A stretch of DNA of 33,286 nt, from positions 1 to 33,286 of the forward strand of contig JAUILT010000031.1 of the NCBI GenBank assembly GCA_030432925.1. The letters run 5' to 3'. Positions 2,977-11,970 of the stretch are shown piece by piece. Below the pieces are notes generated by a model that searched no databases, had not been told where the DNA came from, and saw nothing but the letters and a program-made list of their open reading frames with translations. Made by a program: the position numbers and the translations under genes. Numbering within the stretch: the stretch's first letter is position 1; every line of letters starts with the position of its first letter. This DNA is from Bdellovibrionia bacterium. GTDB taxonomy: Bacteria > Bdellovibrionota > Bdellovibrionia > Bdellovibrionales > UBA1609.

Positions 2977-4038
2977 TTAAATAGAGCGGTAATCTGTCAG
3001 ATGTTTATAAACTGAAGTGAAGGTCACCTTTAGAATACTGGCCACCGGTATGGAGATCAGCATACCCACGACTCCAAGCACTTGAGCGCCTGCGATAATA
3101 GATACCACGACTGTGATAGGATGAAGATCAACAATCTTTGCCACAACCAGTGGAATAATAAATGCGGCATCAATCAGTTGAACAGTAAAGTAAACTCCAG
3201 AAACCAAAAATAGTCCGAAAGTGGTATCACCGTTGATAATAGAAATGGCCAAGGCAGGAATAGCTCCGATAATAGGCCCAACATAGGGAATCAGGTTGGT
3301 TAGCGCCGCAAATAAAGCCAGAATTGTAGCGTAGGGAAAATCAATGATGACCAATCCCGCCCAAGTCAGAACCCCAACAAATACAGCCTCTAAAAGTCGA
3401 GCCCGAACAAAGTGTCCCATTTGATCATTGATCTGGTGGTAAAGGCTCAGGGTTGTTTCAAATATACTATTGGGTACAAGGTTTAACAAATTTCTTGAGA
3501 AGACCTTTCCATCTTTGATCATAAAAAAAGCAATAAAAGGGGCTAGTAGTAAAGTGGTCACAGATTTAGTGATAAATCCGGGAAGGTCCTCAAATAGAGC
3601 CGTTGTCCATGGAGAAAGAGCTGCCTCCACTTGCTCTGAAAAATCAATGGCAAAATAGGATCCAGCCATATCACCAAAACGTTGTTCAGACTCTGCAATC
3701 AGTTGCGTTAGGCCCTCGGCATACTTTGGAAACTCTGCCTTTAACAGCCCCAACTGGTTGGCAATGAGAGGCAAGAAAGAAGAAACCACCACTCCCAACA
3801 GGGCGCTGACACCAATAAAAGTGAATGATACTGCAAGAAGTCTATTGATGCCTAGCCGCTCCAACGAGTTGACAAACGGCCCTAGCAGATAAGAAATCAC
3901 AAAAGCCAGAAGTGATGCCACCAAAAGGTTTTCCACTTTGACAATCAAAAATAATACAGAGGCAATCACGCCGAGAAAACTCATCAGGCGGATAAAATTG
4001 TAAAGCTTGAGCTGTCGGTTGCGAGTGAATTGAGTCAT
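2977..4038 (-). CDS. AI-2E transporter family permease (PerM/YdiK type)
   Basis: This 353-residue polytopic protein has the AI-2E/UPF0118 pattern: an N-terminal pair of membrane segments (about 12-55), a third hydrophobic segment (about 65-90), a central amphipathic soluble region (about 95-160), and C-terminal segments containing the N-L-I-P-Y-V-G-P motif. The family includes TqsA (autoinducer-2 export) and Na+/H+ antiporters, so the substrate cannot be assigned from sequence. Its ATG directly follows the TAA of the upstream cyclic-nucleotide-binding gene (TAAATG), so the two are translationally coupled. Control of a permease by a cyclic-nucleotide-sensing partner is an inference from this arrangement. 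Confidence 0.85.
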   Translation of the reverse strand: MTQFTRNRQLKLYNFIRLMSFLGVIASVLFLIVKVENLLVASLLAFVISYLLGPFVNSLERLGINRLLAVSFTFIGVSALLGVVVSSFLPLIANQLGLLKAEFPKYAEGLTQLIAESEQRFGDMAGSYFAIDFSEQVEAALSPWTTALFEDLPGFITKSVTTLLLAPFIAFFMIKDGKVFSRNLLNLVPNSIFETTLSLYHQINDQMGHFVRARLLEAVFVGVLTWAGLVIIDFPYATILALFAALTNLIPYVGPIIGAIPALAISIINGDTTFGLFLVSGVYFTVQLIDAAFIIPLVVAKIVDLHPITVVVSIIAGAQVLGVVGMLISIPVASILKVTFTSVYKHLTDYRSI

Positions 4039-4569
4039 TTATCTCTCGGCAATGAGTTTCATTTGTTTTTTAAGCTCAGTCACTTTTTCAGATGTTCCTT
4101 TAAGGCGGCGCCCAAGTACTTGAGAAAGGCGAAAGCAGATTTTTGCTCCTGTAGAGGGGTTTCTCTCGATGATCTCTTCAAGGTCTGGCCTAAAAAAACC
4201 AATCATCATACTGTCGCCGACGGAAAGAGCCGTGGCACTTCGTCGAGAGTTTTCTTCTACAAGAGAAAGTTCGCCTAAAAAGTCTCCTCCAGAAAGGCGG
4301 GTTACATGAGTGGGTTCATCCGAATCAATAAGTGCATCCTCCACCATGATATCCACTGTGCCCCGGCCAATGATATACATACCCACACCAATTTCTCCCT
4401 GTTTAAAAACAGCTTCGCCATTTTTATAGTGTCGGACGTGAATGAGTTCTTTAACAAAAGAAAGCTCTTTTCGTGAGAGGTCTTGAAAAATATAGCAAGA
4501 CTTTAAAATACTTTGAAGTTCTTCGATAGCGTCACTTTTTCTAAATAGATTTTCCCACATTTGGTTCAC
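4039..4569 (-). CDS. Cyclic nucleotide-binding domain protein (stand-alone cNMP domain)
   Basis: This 176-residue protein consists of a single cNMP-binding domain (about residues 27-150). It has the phosphate-binding-cassette motif G-D-F-L-G-E-L-S-L near residues 95-103, followed by S-R-R-S-A-T, with the conserved Glu and Arg present. There is no HTH and no catalytic domain, so it is a sensor or regulatory subunit. The GTG start at 4569 is chosen because GGAG lies 7 nt upstream; an ATG at 4560 is the alternative. It follows the BatE-like gene by 1 bp and abuts the AI-2E permease. It probably acts at the membrane with one of these partners. Real cAMP or cGMP binding is plausible from the conserved residues. 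Confidence 0.8.
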   Translation of the reverse strand: MNQMWENLFRKSDAIEELQSILKSCYIFQDLSRKELSFVKELIHVRHYKNGEAVFKQGEIGVGMYIIGRGTVDIMVEDALIDSDEPTHVTRLSGGDFLGELSLVEENSRRSATALSVGDSMMIGFFRPDLEEIIERNPSTGAKICFRLSQVLGRRLKGTSEKVTELKKQMKLIAER

Positions 4570-4570
4570 T

Positions 4571-5428
4571 TCATAGCTCCCTGCCTGATGTGTGAAAAAG
4601 ACTCTGACTTTTTACCCACCCAGTGAGACCTCCAGGGTATTTGACTTGAGACCAATCAGAGGCCCTTCTTTTTAATAACACTTCAGAGCCCTCATAAACT
4701 TCAAACAAAGTGGAGCTTTCACTTGTGGGTGCAGACTTAACCTTGACGGTTTCAGTAACTACTGTTGCTCGAGGTGTAAAGTAGTCATACACCTTGAGAA
4801 TGGCTGTCACTTGAAAAGCCAGAAACCCAACAAAAAGACCAATGCCCACCCATGGGATGGGGGGGAGTGGAAATTCCTCTTCCACGGCCAATCGTCTTTG
4901 CCCCAGATAGCGAATGAGGATCCACCCACAACAGGCCATAAAGACCAGGGTTAAAAAGAAAACTTGGTTGATGGACATTCGAGATAAGATGTGGCGACGA
5001 AAACGTTCCCAGTGACCTCTTGGAGATGAAATATTGCCTATAGAAGATGTGGCCATTAGAAACTCGATGGCTCTTGAGGCTGGCTCTAAATCAGGGTCCA
5101 AAAACAACGCCTTGCGCCAGGCGGCCAGTGCCATGCCATTGTTCTTTAGTTGGTACTCACTGAGCCCCCAGTTATATAAAATTAAGGGGTTTTGGGGTTC
5201 ACTGGACCATGCTTGTTGAAACTGATCTCTTGCCTGGGAAAAGTCTTTTTCTTGATAGTGTCTTAGCCCGAGTTGATAAGATTCGGCAGCACTCAAGTTT
5301 TTCAGTTCGGCTTGGGGTTGTGCTGCAGGAATTGTGGTTCCACGGGAGTGGTTCCACCCATCTTGCGCCATGGCGAAAGACATTGAGTTTATGATAAGTA
5401 AAAGGGCGAGAGCTCTGAGAAAAAACAT
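4571..5428 (-). CDS. BatE-like protein: signal peptide, TPR, two membrane segments, SH3
   Basis: This 285-residue protein has a signal peptide (about 1-21, ending A-M-A-Q), TPR repeats (about 45-125), a membrane segment (about 152-175), a second one (about 190-213) and a C-terminal bacterial SH3 domain (about 218-282) ending in the G-L-T-G-W-V motif. This order is that of BatE of the Bat (Bacteroides aerotolerance) operon, where MoxR and von Willebrand A proteins normally accompany it. None of those is in this window. It heads a three-gene minus-strand set with the cNMP-domain protein and the AI-2E permease. The product would sit in the inner membrane with both its TPR and SH3 regions likely periplasmic. 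Confidence 0.75.
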   Translation of the reverse strand: MFFLRALALLLIINSMSFAMAQDGWNHSRGTTIPAAQPQAELKNLSAAESYQLGLRHYQEKDFSQARDQFQQAWSSEPQNPLILYNWGLSEYQLKNNGMALAAWRKALFLDPDLEPASRAIEFLMATSSIGNISSPRGHWERFRRHILSRMSINQVFFLTLVFMACCGWILIRYLGQRRLAVEEEFPLPPIPWVGIGLFVGFLAFQVTAILKVYDYFTPRATVVTETVKVKSAPTSESSTLFEVYEGSEVLLKRRASDWSQVKYPGGLTGWVKSQSLFHTSGREL

Positions 5429-5623: not shown

Positions 5624-7018
5624 ATGACAGGCAGTCTTGTTGGTGAACAGCTTTTTTCTAGTCCAGAGGTAGAAAGTCATCTCAATACACTTGTTTCTGA
5701 TATTCAGAAGTTCAGTGAAAAAATTGAAACTGTAAGGCCTCCCTCTCCTGATTTACAGGAAAAAGCGCAAAAAACTGTGGATCAAATAGGTCAAAACCGA
5801 GGGCGTCCACTGTTTTACCCTTACGTTGGTACAGGTATTGGACGCGGGTGTTATGTCGAGGTGAATGACGGCAGTGTTAAAATGGACTTGATCAATGGGA
5901 TTGGGATTAACATCATGGGACACTCTCACCCTAGGGTTCTTAAAGCCTCCATAAAGGGTGCAATGAACGATGTAGTCATGCAGGGAAACCTCGAGCCCAA
6001 CATGGAGTACTCTGACTTGGCAGGAGAGCTGATCCAACTCGCTCAAAAAAACTCTCGTTTGAGGCACTGCTGGATAACAACCTCAGGGTCTATGGCTAAT
6101 GAAAATGCTTTAAAAATGGCTCGTCAAAAAAATACGCCTGCGAACATGATACTTGCATTGGAAGGGGCTTTTGCCGGTCGTACAACAATGATGGCAGAAA
6201 TTACAGATAACCCTGGCAATAAAATAGGGCTTCCGGACTATAACGAAGTATTGCGAGTCCCTTATTGCAATAAGTTTGCAGATATGTGCCGAACCCGTTG
6301 TGGAAAAGAGAAGGCGTTGTCTCGGCTGAAGGAGCATGTGGCTAATCATGAAGGTAAGATCGCAGCCTTTGTATTTGAACCCATGATTGGTGAAGGGGGG
6401 TACCGTGTTGCTTGTAGGGACTACTTTATTCCAATGTTAGAGTTCTGTCGTGAAAAAGAGATCGCCGTATGGGCTGATGAAATTCAGACGTTTGCTCGAA
6501 CGGGAAACTTTTTTGCCTATGAAACTTTAGGCTTTGGTGAGTATGTGGACCTTTGCACAGTTGCAAAGACGATTCAAAACGGAGCGACACTTTATACAGA
6601 AGAATATAATCCTCAACCAGGCCTTATTGCTGGAACTTTTGCCGGTTCGTCATCGTCGTTGGCGGCAGGCTATGAGATTCTTAAAATCCTGCAAGAGGGT
6701 TATATGGGTCCCCAGGGAAAAATTCAGCAGATCCACGATAAATTTGTGAGCATGTTAAACTCACTGAATGAAACTTCTTGCAAAGGTCTTTTGCAGGATG
6801 CTGGTGGGCTGGGCTTAATGGTGGCGGTCACTCCTTTGGATGGGTCGAAAGATAAAATGATACAACTACTTAAAGTACTTTATAAAAATGGACTTATGAC
6901 GTTTGGTTGTGGAAAGGGCCCTTTCCGTCTTAGGTTTTTGCTTCCGGCTATTATGACGGAACAAGATATTGAGCGGGCAGGTGAAATTATTGAAAAGTCT
7001 ATTTTGGAGCTTGCTTGA
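5624..7018 (+). CDS. Class III PLP aminotransferase, AstC/ArgD-like (succinylornithine transaminase candidate)
   Basis: This 464-residue fold-type I class III aminotransferase has Asp285 in the A-D-E-I-Q motif, which would hold the PLP pyridine nitrogen. Lys315 in T-V-A-K-T-I is the expected Schiff-base lysine, and G-S-M-A-N-E-N-A-L binds the cofactor phosphate. It is longer than AstC or ArgD (about 400 residues), with an extra N-terminal stretch of roughly 50 residues. A Cys cluster (C215-x6-C222-x3-C226) is not a usual feature. As first gene of an operon with AstA and AstD, it most likely converts N2-succinylornithine plus 2-oxoglutarate to succinylglutamate semialdehyde plus glutamate. Acetylornithine, ornithine or lysine aminotransferase activity is possible. 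A good ribosome site (AGAGAGG) lies 7 nt before the ATG. Confidence 0.8.
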   Translation: MTGSLVGEQLFSSPEVESHLNTLVSDIQKFSEKIETVRPPSPDLQEKAQKTVDQIGQNRGRPLFYPYVGTGIGRGCYVEVNDGSVKMDLINGIGINIMGHSHPRVLKASIKGAMNDVVMQGNLEPNMEYSDLAGELIQLAQKNSRLRHCWITTSGSMANENALKMARQKNTPANMILALEGAFAGRTTMMAEITDNPGNKIGLPDYNEVLRVPYCNKFADMCRTRCGKEKALSRLKEHVANHEGKIAAFVFEPMIGEGGYRVACRDYFIPMLEFCREKEIAVWADEIQTFARTGNFFAYETLGFGEYVDLCTVAKTIQNGATLYTEEYNPQPGLIAGTFAGSSSSLAAGYEILKILQEGYMGPQGKIQQIHDKFVSMLNSLNETSCKGLLQDAGGLGLMVAVTPLDGSKDKMIQLLKVLYKNGLMTFGCGKGPFRLRFLLPAIMTEQDIERAGEIIEKSILELA

Positions 7019-8355
7019 GTTTAGTAGAAGCTTGTAGGAACTTCATTGCAATAGAAAGCACACCTGGGCACGGCAACTTTGAAGCCGCAGAGTTTGTTGC
7101 TCGCCTTTCTGGAGAAATGGGCTTTCATGTTGAAAACCAAAAAGAAACGCTGAATGGTCTTGAACAGAGCAATGTTATTATTCGAAACTTTCAAGGGATT
7201 CCATCTGAGGAACTATTGCTTCAAACGCATTTGGATACTGTTGATCCAGGCAACTTTGGTCAGTGGACAAAGACGCAGTCCAACCCCTTTAATGCATCTA
7301 TATACAATAATGAAATGTATGGGCTTGGAGTGGCAGATACCAAACTTGATTTTATTTGTAAACTTTTTGCGGCCAGAGATTTTTCTAGAAAGAAGTTAAA
7401 GAGGCCTTTTGTTCTGGTTGGCACCTATGGTGCTCAAAATGCCATGGCGGGAGCTATAAAACTTGTTCGCAGAAAACAAATTCATGCAAAAATAGCTCTT
7501 GTCGGCGAGCCAACAGACCTGCAGTTAATTCATGCCGGCCAAGGAATGGTTGTTGTGGAAATATCGATACCGTTTTCAAAAGAAGAAATGAACTATAGAG
7601 CACAGCACGACTTAATGGAGAGTTCGACGACTCAAAGTAGAATTTTTCATGGCAAAGCAGCTCACTCCAGCCGTCCTGAAATGGGTGAAAATGCCATTGT
7701 AAAAATGCTTGATTACCTGGTTCAGCTGCCAGAGGGCATTGCTATTATGGGGCTAGATGGGGGTATTAATTTTAACTCTGTTCCAGACTTTGCGGTTTTA
7801 GAGATTGATATGGTTGCGGGATTCAAGGATCCCATTGTTCCAAAAATAGCTTATATTTTGAAAAAAGCCAAAGAGGTCGAATCGGAGTTTAAAAGCTTCG
7901 TGGATGCTGAAGACGGCGAAGCGCCAACGATGAACATTGGTACTATTCGAACATATGACGACCAGGTTCGGGTGGTTGGCTCATGTAGAATGCCCTACCC
8001 TGTGCCGGAAGAGCTTTATCAAAAATGGATGTCTGACTTGGGAAAAGCGTGTGAGGAGAAAGGGGCGGTTTTTCGAATTCGTGATTATAAAAAAGCATTT
8101 CATGTGCCAAAAAATTCAGATTTTCTTAAAGGTTGTGGAAAAATTCTTGAAAGTCTTGGAAGAGGGGCACAACCAAGCGCGATTTCTGTCGCAACAGAGG
8201 CCAGTGTTTTTTCTCGTTTGGGTTTGGAGTGTCTAGTTTTTGGTCCAGGACAGAGTATTGGAAACTCCCATGCACCTAACGAAAGAGTAAGGGTATCTGA
8301 TTTAGAGACGGCGACAGAGTTTTATAGACAAGTCATTGAGAGGTTTTGCCAGTGA
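7015..8355 (+). CDS. M20-family metallohydrolase (ArgE/DapE-like) lacking the catalytic Glu-Glu pair
   Basis: This 446-residue M20 peptidase-fold protein starts at a TTG that overlaps the aminotransferase stop (TTGA), with GGAG 5 nt upstream. Expected metal ligands are visible at His72 (T-H-L-D-T-V-D), Asp108 (G-V-A-D-T-K), Glu165 (G-E-P-T-D) and His419 (S-H-A-P-N-E). The dimerisation-domain His217 (G-K-A-A-H-S-S) is also kept. The Glu-Glu pair that supplies the general base and a second-metal ligand (E134/E135 of DapE) should fall near residues 140-141, where the protein has Gly-Ala-Gln-Asn. An insertion of about 25 residues (roughly 185-208) separates two strands before G-K-A-A-H. Its position suggests the succinylglutamate desuccinylase step (replacing AstE), since DapE-type M20 enzymes cleave N-succinyl groups. 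The altered site could mean another reaction or a non-catalytic binding role. Confidence 0.8.
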   Translation: MSLVEACRNFIAIESTPGHGNFEAAEFVARLSGEMGFHVENQKETLNGLEQSNVIIRNFQGIPSEELLLQTHLDTVDPGNFGQWTKTQSNPFNASIYNNEMYGLGVADTKLDFICKLFAARDFSRKKLKRPFVLVGTYGAQNAMAGAIKLVRRKQIHAKIALVGEPTDLQLIHAGQGMVVVEISIPFSKEEMNYRAQHDLMESSTTQSRIFHGKAAHSSRPEMGENAIVKMLDYLVQLPEGIAIMGLDGGINFNSVPDFAVLEIDMVAGFKDPIVPKIAYILKKAKEVESEFKSFVDAEDGEAPTMNIGTIRTYDDQVRVVGSCRMPYPVPEELYQKWMSDLGKACEEKGAVFRIRDYKKAFHVPKNSDFLKGCGKILESLGRGAQPSAISVATEASVFSRLGLECLVFGPGQSIGNSHAPNERVRVSDLETATEFYRQVIERFCQ

Positions 8356-9368
8356 GTTTTAGAATTCGAAGTGCCAGAAGAGAAGATCAAAAACAGCTTT
8401 ATGAGTTGGCGCGACAATTCACTTTGCTTAACCTTCCTGCAGACAAAAATACAATTGCTCAAAAAATTGATAAAAGTATTGCATCATTTTCTGGAAGCGT
8501 CTTGGCAGCAGAGAGCGAATATCTTTTTGTACTGGAAGACGCTAGCGATGGTTTTATTGCGGGTTCTTCGCAAATTGTTGGAAAAAAGGGAACCGAAAAA
8601 AAACCGGCCTTTTCTTTTCGCGTATTAAAAAACGAAAGGTTCTCTAAGGACCTGGGAATTGGGTTTATTCATCAGGTATTGCGTTTGAAAGTAGAGTCAA
8701 ATGGCTGTGCAGAGGTCGGCGGGCTAGTTCTTGATCGTGGTCACCGCAGGCTTCCAGAGAAGCTCGGAAAGCTATTGAGTTTGAGTCGCTTTTTATTTGT
8801 GGCCATGGAGAGATCTCGTTTTCAGGTCAATATTCATGCAGAAATGGCCCCTCCCTTGACAGAAGAGGGGCGCTCTGAGTTTTGGGAGGCTTTGGGAAGA
8901 AGGTTTACGGGAATGCCTTATGCCGAAGCAGATGCTTTGAGTCAGAAGAACAAGAGGTTTATCCAAGACTTGTTTCCTGAGGAAGATATCTACCTTGCAT
9001 TACTGGACTCCAAAGCCCGTCTTGTAATGGGTCGTGTTGCCGAAGAGACGCAGGCTGCAGAATATATGCTTAAAAAAATGGGTTTTCAGTCAACAGACGA
9101 AGTAGACCCATTCGACGGCGGTCCCCATTTGAAAGCCATCATTGATGAAATTCCCCTGGTAAAGAGCAAGCGTGACCTGACCTTAAAAAAAGCAGCTCAT
9201 CAGACATTTGAGAGGATGGGCCTTATTGGGTACAAAGACGCGGGTGAGTTTATAGGGTGCCAGTCGGCTTATGCTGCAGAGGGTGACTTACTGCACTTAC
9301 CCGAGTCGGCATGGAAAACTATGGATTTGAGTGAAGGCCAAAAGCTGAGTGTGACAGATTATATTTGA
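8352..9368 (+). CDS. astA: Arginine/ornithine N-succinyltransferase
   Basis: This 338-residue AstA-family acyltransferase would transfer succinyl from succinyl-CoA to the alpha-amino group of arginine (or ornithine, as in AruF/AruG), the first step of the AST catabolic route. Recognisable family blocks are the N-terminal G-N-A-T-like R-I-R-S-A-R-R-E-D start, K-I-D-K-S-I-A-S-F, a long conserved region with F-W-E-A-L-G-R-R-F and Y-A-E-A-D-A-L, and P-F-D-G-G-P near residue 255. The GTG at 8352 overlaps the M20 stop (GTGA) and has GAGAGG about 8 nt upstream. A TTG at 8346 is the poorer alternative. The length agrees with E. coli AstA (344). Confidence 0.88.
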   Translation: MSFRIRSARREDQKQLYELARQFTLLNLPADKNTIAQKIDKSIASFSGSVLAAESEYLFVLEDASDGFIAGSSQIVGKKGTEKKPAFSFRVLKNERFSKDLGIGFIHQVLRLKVESNGCAEVGGLVLDRGHRRLPEKLGKLLSLSRFLFVAMERSRFQVNIHAEMAPPLTEEGRSEFWEALGRRFTGMPYAEADALSQKNKRFIQDLFPEEDIYLALLDSKARLVMGRVAEETQAAEYMLKKMGFQSTDEVDPFDGGPHLKAIIDEIPLVKSKRDLTLKKAAHQTFERMGLIGYKDAGEFIGCQSAYAAEGDLLHLPESAWKTMDLSEGQKLSVTDYI

Positions 9369-9379
9369 AAGGAAGGTTC

Positions 9380-10897
9380 ATGAGTTCAAAAGGCACGATT
9401 GAGTTTCGAGGGGATTTTATTGATGGAGAGTTTCGATCTCATACCACAAAGGATGGTGAATGGTTGGTAAAAAGTCCCGGTGACCTTAAGGATATTGTTT
9501 TTGAAGCAAGTGTTTCCAATGAAAATATCAACAGAGCTTGTTTGGCCGCCAGAGCTGCTTTTCCTATGTGGGCAAAAAAAACACTGGAAGAGCGTGTTGA
9601 GCATGTGCAACGTTTAAAAGAAATTTATCAAGCTAGGGTAGAACAAATTGCAGAAACCATTTCCAGAGAAACAGGAAAGCCCTTGTGGGAAGCAAAAACA
9701 GAAGCAACAGCCATGGTTGGAAAAATTTCTATTACCATCGAGCACTCTTTAAAGCTTGTGGAAAATCAAAAAATTTCTGAGATTCAGCCGAATACAGATG
9801 GTTGGATTCGTTTTAAGCCAAGAGGTGTGATGGCTATTCTTGGTCCATTTAATTTTCCCGGACATTTGCCCAACGGTCACATCATTCCGGCGATTGTTAC
9901 CGGAAACACAGTTGTCTTCAAACCCAGTGATAAAACTCCTGTGATTGCACAGGTAATGGCAGAAATGTTTGAAGAGGCGGGCATCCCCGCTGGAGTGTTT
10001 AATGTGATTCATGGCAAAGGGGATACTGGGAAACGGTTAGTGGAGTCGGAATATATTGACGGTATTTTATTTACCGGTAGTTATGAGGTGGGTCTTAAAA
10101 TTAAACAGGCAACATTACATCATCATTGGAAAATTCTTGCTTTAGAAATGGGCGGAAAAAACTGCACTGTTGTGTGGAATGATGCCAACCTAGAAAAAGC
10201 TGTCTATGATACAATTACAGGCTCTTTTCTCACTACAGGGCAGCGATGCTCAGGAACAAGTAAGGTTATTTTACACCCAGAGATTAAGGACAAGTTCATA
10301 GAGAATTTTTATGAAACGGCTAAGAAATTAACAATAGGGCACTGGGAGTCCAACCCATTTATGGGGCCATTGATTGACTCGGACTCTGTAGAAAAATACA
10401 TTCGCTTTCAAGAAATTGCTAAAAGAGAAGGGGCTGAGAGTTTGATGAGAGGCAAGACTCTTAATTTAGATACCGATGGTTACTATGTTACTCCGAGTAT
10501 CAACCTTGTGGAGAAGTTCAATGCTAAATCCGTGTATCAGCAAAACGAAATTTTTGGACCTAATGTAGCTATTATGACAACAGATGATTTTAACCACGTC
10601 TTGCAGATTCAGAATGCTTCAGGGTTTGGACTTTCCATGGCGATCTTTTCAGAAAATGAAGCGCTCTATAATAAAGCACTGTTGGAGGCTCGAGTGGGAC
10701 TTTTGAATTGGAACAGAACAACAAACGGAGCTTCGTCTCGGTTGCCATTTGGCGGAATGGGGAAATCTGGGAATGACCGCCCATCGGCACATTTTGCAGT
10801 TAATTACTGTACAGTTCCTGTTGCTAGTCTTGAAGATCGCAATCCATTCGATGAGAGCAAAGTGTTACCTGGCATAGACTATAGCTTTAAAGACTGA
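9380..10897 (+). CDS. astD: N-succinylglutamate 5-semialdehyde dehydrogenase
   Basis: This 505-residue aldehyde dehydrogenase superfamily protein is closest in pattern to AstD, which oxidises succinylglutamate semialdehyde to succinylglutamate with NAD+. Glu256 in L-E-M-G-G-K-N and the nucleophile Cys290 in G-Q-R-C-S are both present, as are the cofactor-binding F-N-F-P-G-H-L-P-N-G-H segment (about 152-162) and E-I-F-G-P-N. The ATG at 9380 is chosen because AAGGA lies 6 nt upstream; a TTG at 9365 overlapping the astA stop is possible. The length is close to E. coli AstD (492). The stop overlaps the mltG ATG by one base. Other ALDH substrates cannot be excluded, but the astA neighbour makes this call strong. 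Confidence 0.88.
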   Translation: MSSKGTIEFRGDFIDGEFRSHTTKDGEWLVKSPGDLKDIVFEASVSNENINRACLAARAAFPMWAKKTLEERVEHVQRLKEIYQARVEQIAETISRETGKPLWEAKTEATAMVGKISITIEHSLKLVENQKISEIQPNTDGWIRFKPRGVMAILGPFNFPGHLPNGHIIPAIVTGNTVVFKPSDKTPVIAQVMAEMFEEAGIPAGVFNVIHGKGDTGKRLVESEYIDGILFTGSYEVGLKIKQATLHHHWKILALEMGGKNCTVVWNDANLEKAVYDTITGSFLTTGQRCSGTSKVILHPEIKDKFIENFYETAKKLTIGHWESNPFMGPLIDSDSVEKYIRFQEIAKREGAESLMRGKTLNLDTDGYYVTPSINLVEKFNAKSVYQQNEIFGPNVAIMTTDDFNHVLQIQNASGFGLSMAIFSENEALYNKALLEARVGLLNWNRTTNGASSRLPFGGMGKSGNDRPSAHFAVNYCTVPVASLEDRNPFDESKVLPGIDYSFKD

Positions 10898-11970
10898 TGA
10901 AAAAAATTATAAAGATTTTCATGTTGATGGGAGTATTGAGCCTAGGGTTTCTAGGGAGCAAAGCTATTTTTTTTCTGAGTTTTCCAGTGGGACCACCTAT
11001 TAAAAACTCTACGTTTGAAGTTCCTCCAGGCGCCAGCTTCACTCGTGTGGCCAATGAATTGCAAAATGAAGGTTATATTTCTGATGCTTTGTATTTTAAA
11101 ATTTATGCGAAGCTTATAGGAAAAGCCACGGAAATTCGTATGGGGGAGTACGCTCTTTCCTCAGAAATGACTCCACCTCAGGTTTTGAGCATCATTACCT
11201 CAGGGATAAGTGTTCAAAAAACTTTCACTATTCCTGAGGGGGAGAATATTTTTGAAATTGCAGACATCCTTGCGAACCACGAAATTGGAACTCGAGAAGA
11301 GTTTTTGAAACTATTTCGTGATAGTCATAGGGTTCAAAAAATCTTAGGAGAGAACTTTTCTAGTTTTGAAGGTTATTTGTTCCCTGAAACTTATAATTAT
11401 ACCAAATATACAACCCCCGAAGATGTTTTAGAAATGATGGTCAATAGTTTTAAGAGAGTCTGGGCAGAGATGGGGGAGGGGCGCAGCAGCTTGAGCCGCC
11501 ACCAGGTTGTGACCTTAGCCAGTGTAGTGGAAAAAGAAACCGGAGCACCTGAAGAAAGGCCAGTTATTGCCTCCGTTTTTCATAATCGTTTGAACAAACG
11601 GATGCGCCTTCAAAGTGATCCAACGATTCTTTACGGACTTCTCGTGGAAACTGGAAAGATGAAAAAAAATATCCGAAAAAAAGATATTCTTAAAAAAAAC
11701 CCTTATAACACCTACACTGTAAAAGCTTTGCCTGCGGGGCCCATTGCTAACCCCGGAAGGGAAGCCATAGCGGCAGTCTTAAAGCCAAAAACTACGGACT
11801 TTCTTTACTTTGTCAGTAGAAATGACGGAACACACGTTTTTTCAAAAACTTACCAGGAACACAACAAGGCGGTTCGTGTGTATCAATTAAACCGCCGTGC
11901 TCGTAAAGGCAAAAGCTGGAGAGATTTAGAGAAACGAAAGGGTGACGGCTCCCAACGCAAAGATCTTTGA
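10897..11970 (+). CDS. mltG: Endolytic peptidoglycan transglycosylase MltG (YceG-like)
   Basis: This 357-residue YceG/MltG-family protein has one N-terminal membrane segment (about 7-28), a LysM-like region (about 40-130) and the catalytic YceG domain. The E-G-Y-L-F-P-E-T-Y block, the V-V-E-K-E-T-G motif at 210-216 (catalytic Glu212) and R-L-Q-S-D-P-T are all present. The closing P-Y-N-T-Y-x-x-x-x-L-P-x-G-P-I-x-N-P-G motif is also intact. The enzyme cuts nascent glycan strands at the inner membrane and limits their length. Its ATG overlaps the astD stop (TGATG) without its own clear ribosome site, so it is coupled to the amino-acid operon. This is an unusual partner, since mltG more often sits with tmk, pabC or ruvX (yqgF). 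Confidence 0.93.
   Translation: MKKIIKIFMLMGVLSLGFLGSKAIFFLSFPVGPPIKNSTFEVPPGASFTRVANELQNEGYISDALYFKIYAKLIGKATEIRMGEYALSSEMTPPQVLSIITSGISVQKTFTIPEGENIFEIADILANHEIGTREEFLKLFRDSHRVQKILGENFSSFEGYLFPETYNYTKYTTPEDVLEMMVNSFKRVWAEMGEGRSSLSRHQVVTLASVVEKETGAPEERPVIASVFHNRLNKRMRLQSDPTILYGLLVETGKMKKNIRKKDILKKNPYNTYTVKALPAGPIANPGREAIAAVLKPKTTDFLYFVSRNDGTHVFSKTYQEHNKAVRVYQLNRRARKGKSWRDLEKRKGDGSQRKDL

Follow-up and report, generated by a model that had tools for sequence, protein, structure and literature searches.

The M20 gene of the window, which is the whole analysed stretch of 33,286 nucleotides from a Bdellovibrionia bacterium, probably encodes a lineage-conserved pseudoenzyme that would descend from an N-acyl-amino-acid deacylase of the M20 (ArgE/DapE) type and that may serve an AST-like operon by binding metal or ligand or as a structural partner. 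The gene (7015..8355) lies on the forward strand, as do all features described below, and its open reading frame begins with a TTG start codon and codes for 446 residues without any internal stop. By Pfam, the protein is a Peptidase_M20 (PF01546, E 8.7e-21; PF07687, E 6.6e-10; both over the cut-off), and its nearest solved structure, by sequence as well as by fold, is E. coli ArgE. The AlphaFold model (pLDDT 90, pTM 0.85) has the M20 fold with its catalytic and lid/dimerisation domains and matches E. coli ArgE (8uw6) with a Z score of 37.4 over 359 residues. The score with the ArgE acetylornithine deacetylase profile TIGR01892 is 144 bits and thus stays below the cut-off of 297.7 bits.

In a direct alignment, the ArgE residues H80, D112, E144, E145, E169, H195, R264 and H355 correspond to H72, D108, A140, Q141, E165, H217, R325 and H419 of the window protein. 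The metal ligands His72 (7228..7230), Glu165 (7507..7509) and His419 (8269..8271; the ligand H355 in ArgE, PMC4320195) are in place, as are the bridging ligand Asp108 (7336..7338) and His217 (7663..7665), whose ArgE counterpart H195 is a substrate-contacting residue of the lid domain (PMC11270798). Codons 140 and 141 (7432..7437), re-read from the bases as GCT CAA, specify Ala-Gln where ArgE has the general base Glu followed by a metal-ligand Glu. The exchange of Glu-Glu for Ala-Gln with retention of the five other residues, which the sequence-only reading had described, is therefore borne out by the bases and by the alignment. In ArgE, the candidate for the general acid/base is E144 (PMC4320195), which also contacts the substrate together with H195, R264 and N251 (PMC11270798). 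The window protein thus lacks the general-base Glu of M20 enzymes (ArgE E144, DapE E134), and of the M20 ligand set His, Asp, Glu, Glu, His it has H72, D108, E165 and H419, with Gln at position 141. Compared with E. coli ArgE (PDB 7rsf/8uw6), it keeps all ligands but one Glu as well as the counterparts of H195 and R264, but it lacks E144 and E145, has an expanded lid with insertions, and is encoded in an AST-like operon. Judged by its sequence, the protein is homologous to M20, yet it stands outside the canonical M20 enzymes.

The alanine at position 140 is shared by a group of 12 rows of the alignment, the window included. These Ala140 proteins cluster together in an M20 tree from which the catalytic columns were left out (SH-aLRT 81); the tree of aminotransferase plus AstD, whose backbone is poorly resolved, splits them three ways. 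Within the group, Ala140 is encoded by all four Ala codons, and the tree requires seven or more synonymous changes at codon 140 but none of the amino acid, an outcome with a chance of about 5e-4 if the codon were unconstrained. H72, D108, E165, H419 and R325 are conserved in 12/12 and H217 and N254 in 10/12 members, and residue 141 is variable (Q in eight, E in two, H and F in one each). Measured against that of the aminotransferase, the divergence of M20 is lowest in the Ala140 group (1.27), followed by full-site relatives (1.49) and eroded ones (2.23). For the same-genus pair, raw pN/pS, used in place of dN/dS because synonymous sites are saturated, is 0.27 for M20 and 0.24, 0.30 and 0.25 for the aminotransferase, AstA and AstD. 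On these data, the M20 gene of the Ala140 group is held under purifying selection, and the lack of the base is preserved as well. Residues of the family mechanism are lost while selection continues, and these are the two features by which, as far as alignments tell, the proteins would count as pseudoenzymes.

The window lies in a genome assembly of 3.04 Mb (G000; 96% complete), whose closest named relatives are uncultured Bdellovibrionales assemblies. Of 59 relatives, 43 have an M20 orthologue, and further orthologues occur far beyond these. A species-proxy tree of aminotransferase plus AstD has the full H-D-E-E-E-H site in 45 rows, including 11/11 outgroup rows and Bdellovibrio bacteriovorus; in 22 rows Glu-Glu is intact but a different ligand is changed or unread, Glu-Glu is missing from 33 (one, L132, being unread there), and 10 have no M20 gene. 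The B. bacteriovorus orthologue (L137) and its relatives share the operon slot and the insertion with the window protein, to which L137 is 51% identical, but L137 has the complete HDEEEH site and is presumably active. No M20 protein with a full site was found in the window's GTDB family, as judged from a 28-row clade (SH-aLRT 99) and further members added as a check. On the M20 tree there are 12 changes at position 140, 15 at 141, 14 at 108, 11 at 165 and 15 at 419, and loss therefore recurs. Within the family but outside the Ala140 group, ligands are retained at 29-57%, versus 75% for equally conserved structural columns (p 2e-4). Even for L042, which has lost nearly all catalytic residues, the ArgE fold is still predicted (pLDDT 87, Z 30.2). 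The ten operons that lack the M20 gene and keep the rest (L174-L183, in G037, G041, G047, G052, G025, G015, G019, G032, G016 and G031) have the aminotransferase gene adjoining astA in most cases, and almost no partner residues were found altered in their aminotransferase, AstA or AstD.

Two side observations concern the same set of sequences. Asp108, a near-invariant M20 ligand, is replaced by Glu while Glu-Glu is kept in L046, L098-L100, L108, L110-L112, L117-L119, L123 and L124, which include much of a Pseudobdellovibrio-like clade, and this may be a partial tuning or an early loss. The record L087, labelled Streptomyces griseus, is plainly a mislabelled Bdellovibrionales assembly by its operon and M20 protein.

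The M20 gene is embedded in a set of overlapping genes. A class III aminotransferase gene (5624..7018), with an AstC/ArgD-like role and the PLP lysine kept, overlaps the M20 start by four bases, and the 3' end of M20 overlaps the gene of an AstA-family N-succinyltransferase (8346..9368; PF04958, E 1.3e-93; TIGR03243 below cut-off). With similar overlaps follow the gene of an AstD-like succinylglutamate-semialdehyde dehydrogenase (9365..10897), identified by profile matches and with its catalytic Cys and Glu kept, and a YceG/MltG gene (10897..11970), which by Pfam and neighbourhood comparison is a conserved downstream neighbour of probably unrelated function. The gene order of the operon is kept across the order. 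The YceG/MltG gene likewise holds its place beside the operon for no evident reason, and upstream (2977-5428 of the window, and in relatives) divergent TPR/SH3, cyclic-nucleotide-binding-like and PerM-like genes hold their order beside it across the order. Further upstream (229-2969), an MBL-fold hydrolase-like ORF, a TSUP-like permease, a Crp-type regulator and two YeeE/YedE-like membrane proteins resemble, by eye, a sulfur uptake/persulfide module.

As in the AST pathway (AstCADBE), aminotransferase, AstA and AstD are arranged in order around the M20 gene, but neither AstB (PF04996) nor AstE, as recognised by its C-terminal domain PF04952, was found in the 96% complete window genome, and the aminotransferase is outside the AstC family (TIGR03246, 96 bits versus a cut-off of 610). 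The one strong AstE_AspA catalytic domain protein of this genome is located in a rimB-rimK cluster. As AstB and a PF04952 AstE are absent there, we infer that the desuccinylase of an AST route of the ornithine type is most naturally sought among the intact M20 orthologues. A takeover by AstE or AstB where M20 is altered was considered and rejected. AstB occurs only in genomes without the full M20 site (12/44 versus 0/6, not significant), as do AstE_AspA-like catalytic domains (22/44 versus 0/6, Fisher p 0.03), but no replacement gene correlated significantly with the M20 state once phylogeny was counted (3 independent pairs), and the solitary astB has no evident adjoining hydrolase. This solitary astB is found off the operon in 13 relatives (L194-L205), 11 with an altered M20 and 2 without M20, and no desuccinylase is evident beside it. 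A search for literature on this operon in Bdellovibrio returned nothing relevant.

The operon and its translational coupling agree with the suggestion of the sequence-only reading that the protein has become a binding or regulatory subunit of the AST enzymes, but some operons have lost M20 and kept their other genes. As the ten operons without M20 keep their other genes, M20 is not essential to them, and as M20 is kept in four operons without AstA (L036, L039, L065 and L068), AstA is no obligatory partner.

What alternatives exist for a pseudoenzyme? That codons 140-141 reflect an error of sequencing or assembly is hardly conceivable and was refuted by the other genomes, as the same-genus genome G002 has Ala-Gln at the same columns and Ala140 is found in ten genomes besides these two. 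It had been proposed at the outset that normal Glu-Glu in orthologues would point to such an error or to local decay; distant orthologues do have Glu-Glu, but near relatives share the constrained Ala140, and the proposal does not hold for the window. A gene that has drifted towards deletion after its catalysis became unneeded, and that is functionless in the lineage of the window, is an unlikely explanation here, although it fits many sister lineages, in which ligands are lost in graded fashion and evolution is faster, and is in line with the ten operons that lack the gene. In the Ala140 group, the constraint equals that of the neighbouring genes, there are no internal stops, the ligands are intact, and codon 140 is constrained, so that the rate data and this codon both disfavour decay. 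A further alternative casts the protein as a prozyme-like subunit, with a second M20 paralogue of the same cell as the active enzyme that it would switch on. It draws on known precedents: dead paralogues such as prozyme are known to activate active ones (PMC5201418), and M20 subunits can be non-equivalent, as in the E. coli p-aminobenzoyl-glutamate hydrolase AbgA/AbgB, where AbgB lacks a zinc histidine (PMC5082436). Like the window protein, AbgA and AbgB are M20-type proteins with altered metal ligands kept in an operon, but in AbgA/AbgB two homologous subunits constitute one active heterotetramer, whereas the 96% complete window genome has no second close M20 protein, the one further match being weak, below the cut-off and in a frame of 974 aa, and none was found in G013 and G029 of the Ala140 group either. 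We therefore regard this arrangement as very improbable.

The main rival is a possible but distinctly less favoured reading, according to which the protein has remained an enzyme but works by a different chemistry, be it with one metal, a distant base, a substrate-assisted or a non-hydrolytic reaction, and Ala140 shapes the new site. The invariance of the four metal ligands, R325 and Ala140 (all 12/12) and a rate of evolution like that of active relatives would suit such an enzyme, and the structural matches of the fold family include 5-nitroanthranilate aminohydrolase, an M20-fold enzyme with a reaction other than deacylation. A different base, which the sequence-only reading had considered, did not emerge: a screen for alignment columns in which D or E became conserved only with the Ala140 group yielded no convincing compensating residue and returned only positions 26, 118, 199 and 332, and no other candidate base has become fixed together with Ala140. 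Among acidic sites, only Asp199 has 12/12 in the Ala140 group versus 8/33, but D is equally common in a Glu-Glu-bearing family (8/10), and by this comparison Asp199 is lineage-specific. The E134A variant of DapE is inactive. That E134 is the base of DapE, for which reason E134 variants have been studied (as cited in PMC4320195), also argues against changed chemistry. One metal or an altered chemistry is possible, and a binding or structural role of the window protein is favoured.

A clue to such a role may reside in the lid. The lid (dimerisation) domain is expanded and spans about residues 178-360 (7546..8094), with limits taken from the model and the alignment. It contains an insertion at residues 185-208 (7567..7638), marked by P186, E191 and Q207 and with a helix at 189-198 in the model. 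The insertion of about 25 residues that had been noticed beside the altered Glu pair is thus real, but it is common to the class Bdellovibrionia including intact enzymes, and it is therefore older than the loss of the Glu pair and not tied to it. Among columns that are specific for Bdellovibrionia versus outgroups, eroded copies retain those in the lid far better than those elsewhere (p 5e-5), a contrast that is partly due to the decay of active-site-lining positions in the comparison set. The class-specific lid residues surviving in eroded copies include the three named above as well as F211, P239, E263, G309 and W338. This retention hints at a second role that may be older than the loss of catalysis.

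For the preferred reading of a pseudoenzyme, the following course of events can be envisaged. The ancestral M20 protein would have cleaved N-succinylglutamate in place of AstE, in an AST-like route with aminotransferase, AstA and AstD. According to the sequences, the general base then gave way to Ala a single time in the window's lineage, and selection fixed this state; the metal ligands and most substrate contacts were kept. As the base is gone and these ligands and contacts are kept, the window protein most likely still binds metal and/or an acyl-amino-acid ligand without hydrolysing it by the M20 mechanism. It would probably now serve the translationally coupled enzymes in a binding, regulatory or structural capacity, possibly via the class-specific surface of the lid. 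For such a role, AbgA/AbgB and activators of the prozyme kind are the closest precedents. In sister lineages, even binding may have become unneeded, with the ligands then eroding or the gene being deleted. More tentatively, the Ala140 proteins could be M20-derived, metal-bound ligand sensors that gate or channel the aminotransferase-AstA-AstD route, and the removal of the base would be the selected step from a deacylase to a receptor. The case resembles metallopeptidase pseudoenzymes (reviewed in PMC11266112) in its kept fold, lost catalysis and probable protein- or ligand-binding role, all of which are predicted from sequence for the window protein. A term search found M20, ArgE and DapE unmentioned in the text of this 2024 review.

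The altered M20 proteins raise the question of how succinyl groups are removed in bacteria of this order, and they call for caution with an annotation of these genes as acetylornithine deacetylases. Pseudoenzymes are common, but most are met singly, as end points. In the present case, a single operon slot in more than 100 genomes presents a full series, from the intact enzyme via a replaced base with kept ligands and selection on the new residue and an eroded site with kept fold to clean deletion, and this series makes the order of events, in which the second role would have come first and catalysis would have been lost later, testable.
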